NCBI GenBank assembly: GCA_017546175.1
Contig: JAFYXM010000007.1
Span: 186,001 to 250,000, forward strand
DNA from: Elusimicrobiaceae bacterium
GTDB lineage: Bacteria; Elusimicrobiota; Elusimicrobia; Elusimicrobiales; Elusimicrobiaceae
Direction of reading: 5' to 3'
DNA length: 64,000 bases
The notes beneath the pieces are model-generated. The model did no database searches. It was not told the origin of the DNA and was given only the letters and a program-made list of their open reading frames with translations. This document shows positions 13,558-20,290 of this stretch, one piece after another. The position numbers were made by a program, and so were the translations under genes. Positions within the stretch are counted from its first letter, which is position 1. Each line of letters opens with the position of its first letter.

Positions 13558-14349
13558 TTACTTCTTAAAACAACTCCAAATAGAATCCACGTAATCGCCT
13601 TTGCTTTCTTCTTTTTGAAACCATTTTTGATACCAGGTCTTTTGAAATGCTTGCGGGTTTTGTAAATAAATATCTAAACTAGCCCACCTATCTTGTTCCA
13701 TCCAAAAATCAAAAAATGAGGGGCAGATTTCTATTTTATATTTTTCCATTGTAAAACTGGGGCGCAATTTTATCGTACAACTACTGCGTTTTAATAATTC
13801 TGCCACAAAGGATAGTACGTGCTTATGGCTATAGTGTGCCCGTAAATAAATAACATCTTTACGTGCTTGGGCTGCCAGCACGTTAATTTTCCACGTAGCG
13901 TCTTGTGCGGGAACGAGCGGATAAGAGCCAAACTGCGTAGTAATACTTTTAATAGCACGGGTAGGCAAGGCATAGGGGCCGTCTTTTAAATCTTCCGTCT
14001 TAAATCCTTCCGTTATTTTGTAGCGTTTATCGCTTACGTGATTACTAAAAGGCGTGTGAATAGAATATTCAATTTCTTTATCCCGAAACGGCATATAACT
14101 TACCAGTTTATCTACTCGCTTAAACAAGTTGTTAAACCACGGATGCACGTTAATTTTACCAGGGACCCATACTGTATGTTGTGGCGGCACAGCAGTGCGG
14201 TGTTCTTTGAATTTCTTGCGTTGTACGAGTGGATCTTGTTCCGTAATATGATAGGGGCTCTCCACCGCGGTACGGTAGAGGAGAGTGTCTCCCTCATAAA
14301 AAGAGACATAACTTCTTTGTTCATCCACAGATACTTTTACTTGATACAT
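13558..14349 (-). CDS. uncharacterised island protein
   Basis: 263 residues, not recognised. Basic, rich in Tyr, Phe, Trp and His, without signal peptide or membrane helix, so probably cytoplasmic. The N-terminal 60 residues look beta-rich; the C-terminal part has several Trp residues (FFDFWMEQDRW near 220). Start set by AGGAGG 4 nt before the ATG at 14349; a GTG 30 nt upstream lacks a site. It has its own -10 (14369-14374), so it is not simply the last gene of the ClpX-like operon, although it lies on the same strand. Confidence 0.7.
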   Translation of the reverse strand: MYQVKVSVDEQRSYVSFYEGDTLLYRTAVESPYHITEQDPLVQRKKFKEHRTAVPPQHTVWVPGKINVHPWFNNLFKRVDKLVSYMPFRDKEIEYSIHTPFSNHVSDKRYKITEGFKTEDLKDGPYALPTRAIKSITTQFGSYPLVPAQDATWKINVLAAQARKDVIYLRAHYSHKHVLSFVAELLKRSSCTIKLRPSFTMEKYKIEICPSFFDFWMEQDRWASLDIYLQNPQAFQKTWYQKWFQKEESKGDYVDSIWSCFKK

Positions 14350-14353
14350 AGTT

Positions 14354-14374
14354 CCTCCTAAATCCTGTATTATA
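14354..14374 (-). promoter_or_regulatory. -10 box and ribosome-binding site of 263-residue protein
   Basis: TATAAT at 14369-14374 and AGGAGG at 14354-14359, minus strand. The 14380-14546 stretch upstream holds no gene I can support. Confidence 0.55.
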
Positions 14375-14546
14375 ATCACTAATATTCACTTGGCAACATT
14401 AAAATATTGTCTGTTAAGTAGAACTTCCAATCCCATTAGACAGATCTGTGAAGGGTCTTGTACGGGTTAAAAGTTGCTTTCCATTCCCATCTTCTACTAG
14501 TATATTTGTTATAGTTTTCTCACTTATTTGATAAATAATTCTCTCA

Positions 14547-15022: not shown

Positions 15023-15916
15023 CTACCTCTCATAAGTTTCCAGTTCCAATTCGGCTTTTTCCAATTTCAGTTCTAAAATGCTGATTTGGTGCTTGTTCCT
15101 TTCTAACTGCAGTTCCTTTTCTTGCAGATCTTTAATAAGAGTGGCCTGCTCTATTGCAAAATCATGTTTTTGCTCTTCCAATGCGGCCTCTAAAATGGCT
15201 TTACTCTTTTTTGCTTCTTTTTGATACATATTTTGATAATCTTTTATCTCTGAATCCTGAAAAATTTGTGCAATTAACGCCAGCACTCCATATACGGCAA
15301 AACCTACAATAACCAAAGAAATAAGTATAGACATATTAGCCTCCCAGCTATCGTTAAAATTTATGTAATCAATAGAAAAATAATAGAACGGACTATCTTT
15401 TCCCTGAAAGAAGTAAATGTTACCCCACCACACTATGAGCATAGGGATATACAAAAACTTAAATCCTAGAAATCCAAGGACTCCTCCGAATATTCCTTTG
15501 ATAACTCTTTCCGATGTTTCAAGAGGAGTTCTGCCTGTTTCATAGAAGTTCTTTCTCTCTTTGGCAAAGGCAAACACTTCCTCTTTGGAAAATCCATTAT
15601 ACGAGCCGGACGATTGGGAGGACTGGATAGCGTAAGACGTGGAAATGGGAGTTGTGATTTCCTTCCCTCCATAATCTATTACTTTAACGCTTATATCTTG
15701 CCCATCACGGGTATGCCCCCAATGTACTTGTGCGCGCCAAATGTCATTTTCATCTTCCCATAGATGAAGGCCCGCCTCTTGCCCCCGATACTCAAAGGTA
15801 AGCCAATCGTCGTCAAACATATCGTAAAAGCCTTGGCTTTCATTATCGCAGAACAATTCAAACTGGTCCTTTTCCAAGAAACAGGTAATTCTTACGTTAG
15901 GCCTTATTTTTACCAT
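15023..15916 (-). CDS. two-pass membrane protein with C-terminal coiled coil
   Basis: 297 residues, not recognised. The first 110 residues look beta-rich and soluble (several Trp and acidic residues), then a Ser-rich linker, two hydrophobic segments (about 138-168 and 195-222), and a C-terminal coiled coil rich in Glu, Lys and Gln (about 228-297). Both ends should face the cytoplasm if the two segments are a hairpin. Good site AAGGAGAA 5 nt before ATG. Third full-size gene of the island operon, 13 nt after its neighbour. It could anchor the ClpX-like ATPase at the membrane, which is a guess from context. Confidence 0.75.
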   Translation of the reverse strand: MVKIRPNVRITCFLEKDQFELFCDNESQGFYDMFDDDWLTFEYRGQEAGLHLWEDENDIWRAQVHWGHTRDGQDISVKVIDYGGKEITTPISTSYAIQSSQSSGSYNGFSKEEVFAFAKERKNFYETGRTPLETSERVIKGIFGGVLGFLGFKFLYIPMLIVWWGNIYFFQGKDSPFYYFSIDYINFNDSWEANMSILISLVIVGFAVYGVLALIAQIFQDSEIKDYQNMYQKEAKKSKAILEAALEEQKHDFAIEQATLIKDLQEKELQLERNKHQISILELKLEKAELELETYER

Positions 15917-15929
15917 AGAATTCTCCTTT

Positions 15930-16448
15930 TTAATTTACTTTAGGCAGTACGCCTAAAAATTGTTTCACATATATAAAATGCCGATTCAGGAAAATACTGC
16001 GCTTATTGTATTGCAGCACGTCCCCTATCTGGTACACTTCTTGCGGCACCTTAAAGAGCGTGTCCAATTCTTCTTGCGAGAATATAGTCTTACCTCTGTC
16101 TAAATACGTTTCCATACGGTTATCCCACCAACTGCCATCTGTGGCTGTTTTGGCAAGTAGCCGTAGAAGTAAGAATAACTGCACCTCGCTACAAGCATTG
16201 GCCTTGATAAACACCGCCAGAGCCAAATGCTGGCTATTTTCGTGCTTGAGGTTTGTAACAATGTTCCAAAAGTACTCTTTATAGCCGTTAGCAGCCCAAG
16301 GACCGTGCTCTAGGTCTATCCACTCGGCACACGCCGAAAACAATTCCTGCGTGGTTTTGTAGCCATTTACGGGCAAATAGGAAAGAATTGCCTTGCGTTG
16401 TTCTTCCAACCCTTCTAGGAACTGCGATAATTGTATGTGTATGTTCAT
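15930..16448 (-). CDS. free-standing copy of the ATPase N-terminal domain
   Basis: 172 residues, soluble, unknown. Residues about 55-168 align with residues 36-142 of the next-upstream ATPase: YKEYFWNI with YRESFQKI, VFIKANACSEVQLFLLLRLL with GFIQKNKLSQAEVWLLLRVS, and IFLNRHFIYV with ELKRNLFIIP. It thus looks like a duplicate of that domain without the ATPase motor, perhaps an adaptor or competitor. The ribosome-binding site TAAGGAG overlaps the ATPase stop codon, 9 nt gap, so translation is coupled. Confidence 0.75.
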   Translation of the reverse strand: MNIHIQLSQFLEGLEEQRKAILSYLPVNGYKTTQELFSACAEWIDLEHGPWAANGYKEYFWNIVTNLKHENSQHLALAVFIKANACSEVQLFLLLRLLAKTATDGSWWDNRMETYLDRGKTIFSQEELDTLFKVPQEVYQIGDVLQYNKRSIFLNRHFIYVKQFLGVLPKVN

Positions 16449-16457
16449 TATTGCTCC

Positions 16458-17834
16458 TTATATTTCAATTTGAACCTTATTTTCCAAAAATGCTTCTTGA
16501 AAGAGTTGCCCCACTTGTTGGTGTAACCCGCGGGCCCCCAAGTGCCGCTCACAAGCATTATTGAGGAGGTGTTCAATAACCTCGCAGGGCACTTGGGTGG
16601 AGGTGTGCAACAACTCTTTGTATTGTTGCAAAGGCCCATTGTATGGGTTGAATAAAATTTTGCGTAATTCGTCTTTTTTAAGTCCCTTTAACTGCACAAA
16701 GTACGAGAAACGTCCCATCAACTCGGGCATCATTCCATAGCTGATATAGTCATCGGCGGTTAAGATGCGATTTGTGGCAACAGGTTCTGTTGTAAACCCG
16801 ACCGCTTTATCCGCGTGTTTTACTTGTAAGTTTTCAAACGCACCACCGACGATAAACAGCACTTGAGAAATATCTATTTTACAAACAGATTTCCCTATTG
16901 GTAGCCTGCTTTCTAAGCGGTAAAAAGTGCTTTCTATTAGCCGTAATAGTTCGGCCTGCACGTTGGTAGAAGCAGCTCCGCCTTTCTGCTCGCTTCCTTG
17001 GCGAATTTTATCAATCTCGTCAATAAATACAATAGAAATAGGTAATTTTCCATTTTTAGCCTCGTTTGCTAGGGGGCGTAATATGTCGCCCACATCCATT
17101 CCTACGTAGCCTGTTTGCGTATATTGGCTGGCATCCGCGTGTACAAAGGGGAGATTAAGAATTTTGGCTAAACACTCACACATATAGGACTTTCCTGTTC
17201 CCGTTGGCCCGCTAATAAAAATATTGTTCTTATTAAACCTTTGACCTTCTTTCGCCCGTGCGCACTTGGTTAAATGCTCAAAAACACCCGCCACAACCCG
17301 TTTTTTGGCTTCATCCTGCCCGATTACATACTTGTTTAATTGGGCCAGAACACGTTGCGGATTGAGTACACGCTTTTTAGTCTGCACCTTCTTCCTTTGT
17401 ATAGTAGGTATAATAAAAAGGTTCCTCTTGAGTTCTACTCTCCCGCCAACTAACGCAAATATCCCTTCAGTAAATAAGGCACTTTTACGGTCCAGTAAAA
17501 TAGATACTAATTCTCTATTAGATGCTATAACTTCGCCCGCTTTCATCAGAGCAGGTATTTCATACAAACTAGGGAGCATCCTTTTGAGGTGCAACAAGGA
17601 TACCCGTAAGAGCAACCATACTTCTGCCTGAGAGAGTTTATTCTTTTGAATGAAGCCCGCTATTGGTAATTTGTCTCCGTTAGAGCGTAATAACCGAGCG
17701 TAGATTTTCTGAAAGGATTCCCTGTATTGTTCCTCCTTAGTAGCAGGGCCAAATAAGTCGTTCCACGCAAATAAATCTTCCAAAAGTTGTGCGCGAGAAG
17801 TGTATTTTGTCTGTTTCTTAGTTGTTTTTCCCAT
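16458..17834 (-). CDS. ClpX-like AAA+ ATPase with novel N-terminal domain
   Basis: 458 residues from ATG 17834. The AAA+ module (about 155-450) resembles ClpX: YVIGQDEAKK near 168, Walker A GPTGTGKS near 209-216, pore loop GYVG near 242, Walker B IVFIDEIDKI near 268, and a C-terminal small domain with HLGARGLHQ near 435. The N-terminal zinc finger of ClpX is absent; instead there is an all-helical region (about 17-144) that recurs as the separate downstream protein. I see no IGF loop for docking to ClpP. It should therefore be an unfoldase or remodeller working alone or with its operon partners. A TTG 48 nt upstream is possible but overlaps the small gene ahead. Confidence 0.85.
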   Translation of the reverse strand: MGKTTKKQTKYTSRAQLLEDLFAWNDLFGPATKEEQYRESFQKIYARLLRSNGDKLPIAGFIQKNKLSQAEVWLLLRVSLLHLKRMLPSLYEIPALMKAGEVIASNRELVSILLDRKSALFTEGIFALVGGRVELKRNLFIIPTIQRKKVQTKKRVLNPQRVLAQLNKYVIGQDEAKKRVVAGVFEHLTKCARAKEGQRFNKNNIFISGPTGTGKSYMCECLAKILNLPFVHADASQYTQTGYVGMDVGDILRPLANEAKNGKLPISIVFIDEIDKIRQGSEQKGGAASTNVQAELLRLIESTFYRLESRLPIGKSVCKIDISQVLFIVGGAFENLQVKHADKAVGFTTEPVATNRILTADDYISYGMMPELMGRFSYFVQLKGLKKDELRKILFNPYNGPLQQYKELLHTSTQVPCEVIEHLLNNACERHLGARGLHQQVGQLFQEAFLENKVQIEI

Positions 17835-18007: not shown

Positions 18008-18040
18008 TAAAAAAAGAACCCATTGTCTCCAATGGGTTCT
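18008..18040 (-). terminator. riboswitch expression platform: terminator
   Basis: Minus strand AGAACCCATT / AATGGGTTCT, 10-bp perfect stem with a 6-nt loop, then seven T. It lies in the leader, upstream of the first gene, so it is an attenuator. Its 5' arm CCCATTG (18036-18030) can instead pair with CAATGGG (18070-18064), the 3' end of the aptamer, forming an antiterminator. Confidence 0.85.
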
Positions 18041-18064
18041 AATACTACAAATCTGTTTTAGTTC

Positions 18065-18150
18065 CCATTGTGTTCAAGCTTTAGCACCTTGCCTTATATG
18101 GGTAGGTTGCTGTGTAGTCATCGGGCTTGTCCCTCGTACACTCTAAATGG
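18065..18150 (-). promoter_or_regulatory. SAM-I (S-box) type riboswitch aptamer
   Basis: Minus strand. P1: CCATT (18150-18146) with AATGG (18069-18065). P2: GTGTA with TACAC, enclosing the kink-turn core GAGGGACAAGCCCGATGA. Then GCAACC, a short P3 region and AAGGTGCTAAA. These match the most conserved S-box parts (consensus AGGGACUGGCCCGAUGA, GCAACC, AAGGUGCUAA). The P4 helix seems very short or missing. The P1 3' strand also belongs to the antiterminator, so SAM binding should free the terminator and turn the operon off. S-boxes normally control methionine and cysteine genes; here the regulated genes are unknown. Confidence 0.75.
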
Positions 18151-18322
18151 AATTTTCCGTTATTTTCGGAAGACCCCAATCCCTTCGCCTTTCTTGGCAT
18201 CCCTCAGCGGACCCTTGATATTGCTTTTTTCCTAGGAATTGGGAAGATTATACTTCCGCTAATAACGTTATAATTATAATTTTAATAAAAACGACATTTT
18301 AGTGTCTCTTTATCACTTTCTA
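18151..18322 (-). other. first half of the operon leader, with several hairpins
   Basis: Between the transcription start and the aptamer, the minus strand can form AGCGGA / TCCGCT, CTTCCCAAT / ATTGGGGT and TTCCG / CGGAA. Base composition is richer in G and C than the flanks. It might be a second RNA domain; I match it to no known class. Confidence 0.4.
18293..18306 (-). promoter_or_regulatory. WYL operator candidate 2 (GACACTAAAATGTC)
   Basis: Minus strand palindrome, just downstream of the operon's transcription start. One of three sites fitting GACACTAnnAYGTC. Confidence 0.65.
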
Positions 18323-18329
18323 TACATAT

Positions 18330-18358
18330 ATTATACCATATATTTAATATAAAGTCAA
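18330..18358 (-). promoter_or_regulatory. promoter of the island operon
   Basis: Minus strand TTGACT (18358-18353), 17-nt spacer, TATAAT (18335-18330). Near-consensus. Transcription should begin near 18323, giving a leader of about 350 nt. Confidence 0.8.
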
Positions 18359-18374
18359 TACCACAGTCATTTAC

Positions 18375-18388
18375 GACACTAATACGTC
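18375..18388 (+). promoter_or_regulatory. WYL operator candidate 1 (GACACTAATACGTC)
   Basis: Lies 16 bp upstream of the operon's -35 box. With site 2 it brackets the promoter. Confidence 0.65.
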
Positions 18389-18431
18389 TTTTAATTGTAT
18401 TTTAAGAATATTCTTTGAAAAACAACGACTT

Positions 18432-19208
18432 TTATAAGTCGTTTTTTTGTTTTTGGGGATTTATAAAATCCAAAGGTTGGGGAGTTGTGGCCTCAGTAGG
18501 CGCCCCAAGAGGTTGCATGGAGTCTTGTTTGGGTTGTTTTTTGGAAGGATCCAAATCTTCCACCCATTGATGGGCAAGATGCCAAATAGGCCATTTTCCA
18601 AACGGAATCGGGCAAAAAGTGTCTCGTAAAGAATAATTTCCTATATTGTCCAACGCTACTAAAGATATTTCCGGCCCGTAAGTATAGCAGGCTACATACC
18701 ATTTATCCCACAAACTAAGTACTTTATAAGGATAAAGGTTGCGATCTTTTTTGATATCCTTTAGAAAAGCGCGCATTGCCCAATGTTCTTGGGTGCATTT
18801 AAGCAAAGTCCGGGCCAATTGGTCTGTTTCTTCAAAGTCGTCATTAGAAGAGTCCCAATCGCAATGTTCAAAAGAGGTAGGCTCAAAGCGTTTGGAAATA
18901 GAAGGAATCGTGGCAGAAAAGTCTTCCCCGATTTGGCAGGCTATGTCGGCCGATATCACTAATAATGCCGCTTGCTCACAAGATAAACGCACGGCTGATA
19001 AAGAAAACCCTTTAACAAACTCATAAACGCTTTGTTTAGGGGAAATAATCGGGACTCTGGCCTTTGCAAACAGGAGCATATCGCGCTGAAGTGTGCGCAC
19101 GGAAACTTCCAACCGGGTTGCTAGTTCCGGTAATTTTACAGAGCCCTGTTCCAAAAAAGCCAAAATCTGCGCCAAACGTTTGGTTTTGCTGGTGATTTCT
19201 TTAGACAT
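18432..19208 (-). CDS. WYL-domain transcriptional regulator
   Basis: 258 residues. DeoR-type winged helix at about 8-58 (LAQILAFLEQGSVKLPELAT, then SVRTLQRDMLLF as recognition helix) and a WYL domain at about 155-205 (YPYKVLSLWDKWYVACYTYG). The C-terminal 40 residues are Pro/Gln-rich and seem unstructured. WYL regulators usually sense a ligand and are common next to defence and other accessory loci. It starts 6 nt after its own -10 box. A 14-bp palindrome overlaps its -35 and recurs twice at the neighbouring operon promoter, so I infer it represses itself and that operon. A stem (ACGACTT / AAGTCGT) followed by T lies over its stop codon. Confidence 0.85.
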   Translation of the reverse strand: MSKEITSKTKRLAQILAFLEQGSVKLPELATRLEVSVRTLQRDMLLFAKARVPIISPKQSVYEFVKGFSLSAVRLSCEQAALLVISADIACQIGEDFSATIPSISKRFEPTSFEHCDWDSSNDDFEETDQLARTLLKCTQEHWAMRAFLKDIKKDRNLYPYKVLSLWDKWYVACYTYGPEISLVALDNIGNYSLRDTFCPIPFGKWPIWHLAHQWVEDLDPSKKQPKQDSMQPLGAPTEATTPQPLDFINPQKQKNDL

Positions 19209-19214
19209 ACTGTT

Positions 19215-19243
19215 ATTCTAGCAAAATAAGACGTTATAGTGTC
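19215..19243 (-). promoter_or_regulatory. promoter of WYL gene with overlapping operator 3; leaderless layout
   Basis: Minus strand -35 GACACT (19243-19238), 17-nt spacer, TGC, TAGAAT (19220-19215), ATG 6 nt later. The palindrome GACACTATAACGTC (19243-19230) covers the -35. Confidence 0.65.
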
Positions 19244-19312: not shown

Positions 19313-19963
19313 ATGATATATGGATATATCCGAGTAAGTAGTGATAAGCAAACAGTTGAGAATCAACGGTTTGAAATTCACAAATTTTGTCTAAAGAACT
19401 CACTGCAAATAGATGGTTGGATAGAAGAAACGATTAGTGGAACTAAAAGTTACAGCAAGAGAGAATTGGGTAAATTGCTAAAAATTATACAACGAGATGA
19501 TTTAATTATTTGTGCAGAATTAAGTAGACTGGGGCGCAATTTATTTATGATTATGGAAATACTCAATATTTGTATGGATAAAGGCTGCAAAGTTTGGACC
19601 ATCAAAGATAATTATAGACTTGGAGAAGATATTCAAAGCAAGGTATTAGCATTTGCATTTGGATTATCTGCTGAAATAGAACGCAATCTAATTAGCCAGA
19701 GGACTAAGGAAGCATTGGCCCGATTAAAAAACGATGGAAAGCAACTTGGACGGCGAAAAGGGTGCCGTAATTATAATTTGAATCATAAATGCGTGAATCA
19801 TCACAATTATATTATGCAACAACTCAAACATCACGCAAGCATTCCTAATATTGCAAGGATAATTAATATATCCAAAGGCACCTTGTATCGATACCTTGCA
19901 TATACGAAAATACGTTTGCCGACCAACAAGCAAAATGATTCGTGGGAACGAGGAATTTATTAG
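19313..19963 (+). CDS. serine recombinase, Mpi-type DNA invertase
   Basis: 216 residues. Catalytic domain 1-140: YIRVSSDKQ with nucleophile Ser9, EELSRLGRN-like AELSRLGRNL near 73, and the E-helix region AFGLSAEIERNLISQRTKEAL near 120. A helix-turn-helix DNA-binding domain follows (about 165-205). Length and sequence fit the small invertase/resolvase class and most resemble the master invertase Mpi of Bacteroides, which flips promoter segments at many sites. A ribosome-binding site GGGAGAG precedes the ATG. It is too small for a large serine integrase, so it probably does not move the island itself. Confidence 0.88.
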   Translation: MIYGYIRVSSDKQTVENQRFEIHKFCLKNSLQIDGWIEETISGTKSYSKRELGKLLKIIQRDDLIICAELSRLGRNLFMIMEILNICMDKGCKVWTIKDNYRLGEDIQSKVLAFAFGLSAEIERNLISQRTKEALARLKNDGKQLGRRKGCRNYNLNHKCVNHHNYIMQQLKHHASIPNIARIINISKGTLYRYLAYTKIRLPTNKQNDSWERGIY

Positions 19964-20017: not shown

Positions 20018-20224
20018 ATGCCTGTCGTTAGAAACCCTCAGTTCTATTTTAAAGAGCCATTTAAGGCTATTTATGAAGCAAAACTAAAGAATGAGGGCGA
20101 AGAGCAATCTTCGCTTCCCAATAAAAAAACAGCCCAATTAAATCAGGGCTGTTTAGAAAATTATGCTGAACATTCAAGCAAAAACGCTTTGAAAAGTTCT
20201 AGCAAAAAAGATTGGGGTGGCTAA
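20018..20224 (+). CDS. possible small protein after the invertase (doubtful)
   Basis: 68 codons with a good site GGGGAGGGA directly before the ATG. The first 40 residues (MPVVRNPQFYFKEPF...) look plausible, but the second half runs through the tRNA-His terminator and into the tRNA gene. Probably a truncated or chance frame. A 10-bp palindrome CGTTTAAACG sits at 19967-19976, just before it. Confidence 0.25.
   Translation: MPVVRNPQFYFKEPFKAIYEAKLKNEGEEQSSLPNKKTAQLNQGCLENYAEHSSKNALKSSSKKDWGG
20122..20155 (-). terminator. terminator of tRNA-His transcript
   Basis: Minus strand ACAGCCC / GGGCTGT stem followed by seven T. Confidence 0.8.
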
Positions 20225-20290
20225 GGGGACTTGAACCCCCGACCTCCGGTTCCACAGACCGGCGCTCTAACCAACTGAGCTACAGCCACC
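20213..20290 (-). tRNA. tRNA-His (anticodon GTG)
   Basis: Cloverleaf read on the minus strand: acceptor GTGGCTG with TAGCCAC, D-arm GCTC..GAGC, anticodon stem CCGGT/ACCGG around loop CTGTGGA, T-arm with GGTTCAAGTCC. The extra G(-1) opposite discriminator C is the histidine identity element and is encoded (20290), as is the 3' CCA (20215-20213). Its 3' end faces the accessory island, as is usual for integration sites, but I found no copy of the tRNA 3' end at the island's far side. Confidence 0.95.

Follow-up and report, generated by a model that had tools for sequence, protein, structure and literature searches.

The WYL gene and the neighbouring ClpX-like operon

The window, that is the whole 64,000-nucleotide stretch of DNA that was analysed, carries on its (-) strand a gene for a 258-aa WYL regulator. 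The next transcription unit on the same strand, which has a strong promoter of its own and a predicted transcription start at ~18323, is an operon that encodes a ClpX-like AAA+ unfoldase (Table 1). The start predicted for the WYL promoter is at the ATG itself, so the WYL mRNA is predicted to be leaderless; relatives have the same leaderless layout.

Table 1. Positions of the features at the locus, in window coordinates
Feature	Position	Strand	Description
O1, putative operator at WYL promoter	19243-19230	(-)	GACACTATAACGTC; centre ~-28.5 relative to predicted start
O2, putative operator upstream of operon promoter	18375-18388	(-)	GACACTAATACGTC as read on (+); centre ~-58.5
O3, putative operator downstream of operon promoter	18306-18293	(-)	GACACTAAAATGTC; centre ~+24
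WYL regulator, 258 aa	18432-19208	(-)	Winged HTH and WYL domain, without WCX domain
WYL promoter	19208-19220	(-)	Extended -10, TGC-TAGAAT (19220-19215)
Operon promoter	18330-18358	(-)	TTGACT-17-TATAAT, extended -10 (TGG); 11 of 12
Structured leader RNA domain	18159-18268	(-)	Conserved AUUCCUAGGAAAA; between O3 and aptamer
SAM-I riboswitch aptamer	18062-18153	(-)	RF00162, 65.3 bits (gathering 44.4), model positions 1-108
Intrinsic terminator of riboswitch	18009-18040	(-)	5' arm CCCATTG
Small first ORF, 44 aa	17848-17982	(-)	Weak L39e resemblance (6e-4, below cut-off)
ClpX-like AAA+ unfoldase	16458-17834	(-)	Walker A/B, GYVG pore loop, VGF loop
172-aa protein	15930-16448	(-)	Homologous to N-terminal domain of ClpX-like protein (hhalign 95.9%, E 5e-9)
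297-aa protein	15023-15916	(-)	Apparent membrane segments and coiled coil
273-aa protein, operon family F10	13558-14379	(-)	Also in L033, L035, L036
Mpi-family serine recombinase	19313-19963	(+)	
tRNA-His	20213-20289	(-)	

The N-terminal winged helix-turn-helix of the regulator was matched by HTH_11 at 1.7e-6, above the cut-off (model helices 26-33 and 37-49), and the WYL domain by the PADLOC WYL model at 3.1e-15; the Pfam WYL model stayed below threshold on this protein. Among solved structures, the best Foldseek matches of the protein were PafBC (9.8e-8), BrxR (2.5e-6) and CapW (3.5e-6), as well as DriD. A C-terminal WCX domain is absent from the AlphaFold model, in which the WYL barrel is followed by one helix and a disordered tail (225-258). 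Since the whole-molecule TM-scores of the model are low, the arrangement of the domains is uncertain. PDB profile searches with the WYL protein and with families F2 and F3 gave nothing convincing.

The VGF loop of the ClpX-like protein occupies the ClpP-contact position of ClpX. The zinc-binding N domain is absent and replaced, as judged against an E. coli ClpX reference, and the ClpX equivalog model scored 211 bits, below its cut-off of 359. A search of genome contigs with this protein returned relatives at 31-36% identity only, mostly ordinary ClpX by appearance. The 172-aa protein, which may be an adaptor or an antagonist, gave nothing in a fold search. Variants of the 44-aa first ORF are present in several relatives. 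In relatives the operon continues with F3, a small membrane protein, and F4, a membrane/TPR protein; both are missing from the window, where their place is taken by the 297-aa protein. The latter recurs behind a riboswitch in L039, whose operon has lost the ClpX-like gene.

Homologues of F3 and F4 (L020:10795-12875, L133, L134) are found in large phages, namely Lak phages, a 595-kb phage and Bacillus phage G. One Lak phage has its F3 homologue ~1 kb away from a ClpX gene, and in the 595-kb phage the F3 homologue has an F4-like gene nearby. Within the class, full-length similarity to F4 is confined to the bacterial family of the window, and a scan of viral contigs with F4 gave no match. A LemA-like assignment of F3, made by eye, was unsupported by Pfam and was dropped.

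The operon occurs sporadically, with a match in 18 of 90 genomes; this distribution, together with the nearby tRNA-His and recombinase genes, suggests a mobile island. A 16-nt inverted repeat (19192-19207 / 19388-19403), possibly a chance occurrence, spans the divergent starts of the WYL and recombinase genes. Near some islands there is a DNA methyltransferase of the type III restriction-modification-like family F15 (L021:2310-4385 (-), L034, L043). PADLOC, run on the island proteins, returned no known defence system, the matches being to WYL, to a generic AAA and otherwise marginal. A defence role of the operon is possible.

Similar sites at the two promoters

The original prediction held that three copies of a 14-bp palindrome define a WYL regulon. 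The three 14-mers were indeed found and agree at 11 of 14 positions. As palindromes they are weak: GAC and GTC are mirrored in all three sites, which is the only symmetry they have in common, and the sites form 5, 5 and 3 of 7 pairs. Their placement was as described, the operon promoter lying between O2 and O3, and O1 covering the -35/spacer region of the WYL promoter.

With no more than one mismatch to GACACTANNAYGTC, a post hoc consensus derived from the three sites themselves, the window contained 3 matches versus 0.21 expected, and at least 3 were reached in 0 of 100 shuffles. In the 1,340,284-base genome, GACACTANNANGTC had 3 exact matches, which were O1-O3, and one further match with a single mismatch elsewhere; the symmetric form GACRYWWWWRYGTC had three matches, again O1-O3 and no others. 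The genome scan proposed with the original prediction confines exact matches to the three sites, and on this ground a wider regulon was rejected: the regulon would be local, comprising the WYL gene and one operon.

WYL proteins 48-64% identical to that of the window are encoded in 12 further genomes of the same bacterial family. The pattern GACRYWWWWRYGTC had been derived solely from the window, ahead of any reading of the relatives, and was scored in 10 of them (two near-identical ones were counted once), in the gaps upstream of the WYL gene and between the WYL gene and the operon. These gaps contained 26 sites with no more than one mismatch, 17 of them exact, versus 0.06 expected from dinucleotide shuffles. 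Because the first consensus came from the very sites it describes, a similarity arisen by chance could be suspected; given the excess in relatives, this explanation was rejected and has a negligible probability, in keeping with the earlier view that chance would hardly suffice. The 33 sites from 11 loci gave the consensus (A)GACRYWWWWRYGTCG, in which all sites have G1, C3, G12 and C14, and 32 of 33 have G15; it replaces the consensus GACACTAnnAYGTC proposed originally. The element of the relatives is accordingly GACRYWWWWRYGTC with a near-invariant 3' G, often perfectly symmetric, as in GACATTTAAATGTC.

Each of the 10 further ClpX-type operons that have a window-type WYL gene retained the three-site layout, with centres at ~-28 for O1, at the WYL promoter, and at ~-58 for O2 and ~+24 for O3, relative to the operon promoter; this is the conservation in relatives that the original prediction demanded. 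The equivalent of O1 lies 33-35 bp upstream of the WYL start. In L025 and L026, where longer ORFs are annotated, the site is ~27 bp or less from the annotated start and becomes equivalent after start correction. O1 is weaker in several relatives, its right half being GAC or GGC, not GTC. The ClpX-type relatives have an O2-O3 distance of 81 bp, the window one of 82 bp and G087 one of 95 bp. In L021 and L025, one nucleotide is missing between O2 and the -35 element and one is gained between the -10 element and O3. That 81 bp was preserved in both species through 1-nt indels that offset each other suggests selection on the spacing as such; as the window and G087 show, it is not absolute. In G087 (locus L029), which belongs to another genus, the WYL gene and its three sites drive a different, 459-aa, RmuC-like-looking gene, and the riboswitch is found further downstream, beside tRNA-Glu.

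The O2/O3 pair was present in 11 of 11 operons with a window-type WYL gene versus 0 of 6 without one, a concordance of 17/17. A tree built from the 17 ClpX-like proteins requires four or more changes of WYL type (4-5 independent transitions), and in all 4 supported independent pairs the site pair follows the WYL type; with four or five transitions a sign test falls short of significance (p 0.125). Loci L036, L038 and L039, whose WYL proteins have diverged, carry one shifted related site, GACAYATAARTGRC, just upstream of the -35 element. Sites that follow the WYL type, and a shifted site next to a diverged WYL protein, are what direct recognition by WYL predicts. Since the layout is kept with the window-type WYL and the O2/O3 pair is absent without it, the comparison of sequences indicates that O1-O3 are very probably operators of the adjacent WYL protein.

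The sites might instead serve another factor, such as the neighbouring serine recombinase, as recombination sites. Recombinases of the Mpi-family type invert promoters, and the one in the window is divergent from the WYL gene, with O1 in between. The recombinase, however, fell into no cluster with genes from related islands, the sites and the orientation of the promoters are constant, and it is the WYL type that predicts whether the sites are present. We consider a role in recombination very improbable; an invertible promoter was rejected, since the related islands do not have the recombinase as a common neighbour.

The leader RNA of the operon

The leader of the operon contains a SAM-I riboswitch followed by an intrinsic terminator. 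The 3' strand of P1 (CAATGGG) is an alternative pairing partner of the 5' arm of the terminator, and across the leaders CRAUGGG occurs both in the 3' strand of P1 and in the 3' arm of the terminator, which compete for CCCAUYG. In several leaders the P1 and terminator segments covary. The RF00162 aptamer is thus joined to an expression platform with mutually exclusive terminator and antiterminator. Among the 90 genomes, a SAM-I riboswitch was found upstream of all 17 ClpX-like operons of the window's type. The other SAM-I copies examined in the bacterial family precede accessory genes or genes of unknown function, among them those for ankyrin-repeat proteins and an N-formylglutamate amidohydrolase-like gene, and no recognisable methionine genes were found behind them. 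At L029 and L039-L052, riboswitches precede the DnaA-like-looking F9, ankyrin proteins and the 172-aa family.

Upstream of the aptamer, the structured leader domain has no Rfam family. It resembles a three-way junction and includes a covarying helix, CCAAUUCCU/AGGGAUUGG. Its motif ATTCCTAGGAAAA occurs 11 times in the 90 genomes, 10 times at this locus, and all these genomes have a window-type WYL gene.

O3 also forms the inner portion of a hairpin in the 5' RNA, and this raises the question of whether it is a protein site at all, or just the loop-side part of a hairpin that stabilises the mRNA. A 5' hairpin forms at the position of O3 in all leaders, including those that lack a window-type WYL gene, as the RNA explanation would have it. 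In the latter, however, its sequence is unrelated, while in leaders accompanied by a window-type WYL gene the hairpin matches O1 and O2 in its inner portion, and O3 keeps its distance from O2. We therefore regard a purely RNA-level role as improbable. Because the hairpin persists without the window-type WYL, O3 appears to be an operator under two constraints, and part of its symmetry may be of RNA-level origin.

Proposed regulation and its relation to known systems

We propose that a WYL dimer bound at O1 would cover the -35/spacer region of its own leaderless promoter, causing autorepression, and that dimers at O2 (-58) and O3 (+24) would lie on either side of the strong promoter of the operon and act as repressors there, probably pairing across a DNA loop of 81-82 bp. 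The survival of the 81-bp spacing through indels argues for joint contact with O2 and O3, as a DNA loop would provide. The lac repressor forms loops of 6-8 turns in vivo (PMC5081198), and the in vivo helical repeat of lac repressor loops is ~11-11.6 bp (PMC1762422), which would make 81 bp close to seven turns.

A ligand would then release the WYL protein. Nucleic acid is the precedent ligand for WYL domains. After release, the transcript would still meet the SAM-I attenuator, and because it must still pass this attenuator, full expression of the ClpX-like operon would require both WYL release and low SAM.

Binding at the same sites could also result in activation of the operon from O2, with O3 as a modulator. 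Activators (PafBC and DriD) are among the close fold matches of the WYL protein, and O2 lies upstream of the -35 element, with its centre (~-58) near a class I activator position. An activator should, however, be superfluous at a promoter with a near-consensus -35 and an extended -10 element, and the positions of O3, at +24, and of O1, on the -35/spacer of the WYL promoter, are those of a repressor. Activation is thus unlikely, and repression is favoured because the promoters are near consensus and sites lie at -28 and +24.

The sites and their positions, the conserved spacing, the co-occurrence with WYL, the riboswitch and the terminator are read directly from the sequence, and from them we infer, with a probability of about 0.8, that O1-O3 are WYL operators acting in autorepression and in looped repression of the operon, to which SAM-I attenuation is added. 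A point against this reading is that the protein has no WCX domain, which gives the dimer its shape in BrxR and CapW. A broader proposal, that a looped WYL repressor and a low-SAM riboswitch are two sensors in series that gate a host-encoded mobile ClpX-like operon, is tentative and somewhat doubtful. If true, such a two-sensor gate could detect an invader that both releases the WYL ligand and depletes SAM. In this broader proposal, the leader RNA element that accompanies the window-type WYL may be a further WYL ligand.

For a short WYL regulator without a WCX domain, outside the proteobacterial and actinobacterial models, the analysis yields a consensus for the operator and a loop geometry that can be tested; it also identifies SAM-I riboswitches that are conserved ahead of an accessory operon of sporadic occurrence. 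Should the island prove defensive, defence control would have a novel kind of input in the SAM level. A literature search returned no relevant paper linking SAM riboswitches with WYL regulators, ClpX or phage defence.

The window's ClpX-like protein shares with ClpX the AAA+ module, the Walker motifs, the GYVG pore loop and the VGF loop, but has another domain in place of the zinc-binding domain. The riboswitch has features of RF00162 (a score well above the cut-off, the alternative P1/terminator pairing and P2 covariation); it differs in lying ahead of an accessory operon of the ClpX-like kind, stacked beneath a WYL promoter.

The closest parallels to the proposed regulation are BrxR and CapW. 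BrxR, from BREX islands of Acinetobacter and E. fergusonii, is likewise a WYL factor beside an accessory operon; it is a repressor, its own promoter carries inverted repeats, and in E. fergusonii there is another site deeper in the island (PMC9122589, PMC9122601). BrxR has a WCX domain, which the window protein lacks, and its repeats of 10-11 bp are separated by 5 bp (~25-27 bp); the passages on it describe neither a conserved loop spacing nor a riboswitch (PMC9122589, PMC9122601). CapW, from CBASS islands, is a WYL homodimer that binds a palindromic promoter operator, represses its operon and can be switched by a ligand; it has a WCX domain and one bound operator, its 19-24 bp sites lying over the -10 element (PMC9122588), while the window has three sites. 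The window island, unlike these settings, has neither BREX nor CBASS genes. An inverted-repeat operator at the regulator's own promoter, as in BrxR and CapW, is matched by the putative operator O1, whose position is conserved in 11 loci. The WYL protein of the window would thus act like BrxR and CapW, and is classed apart from them because theirs are longer palindromes and WCX-containing proteins.
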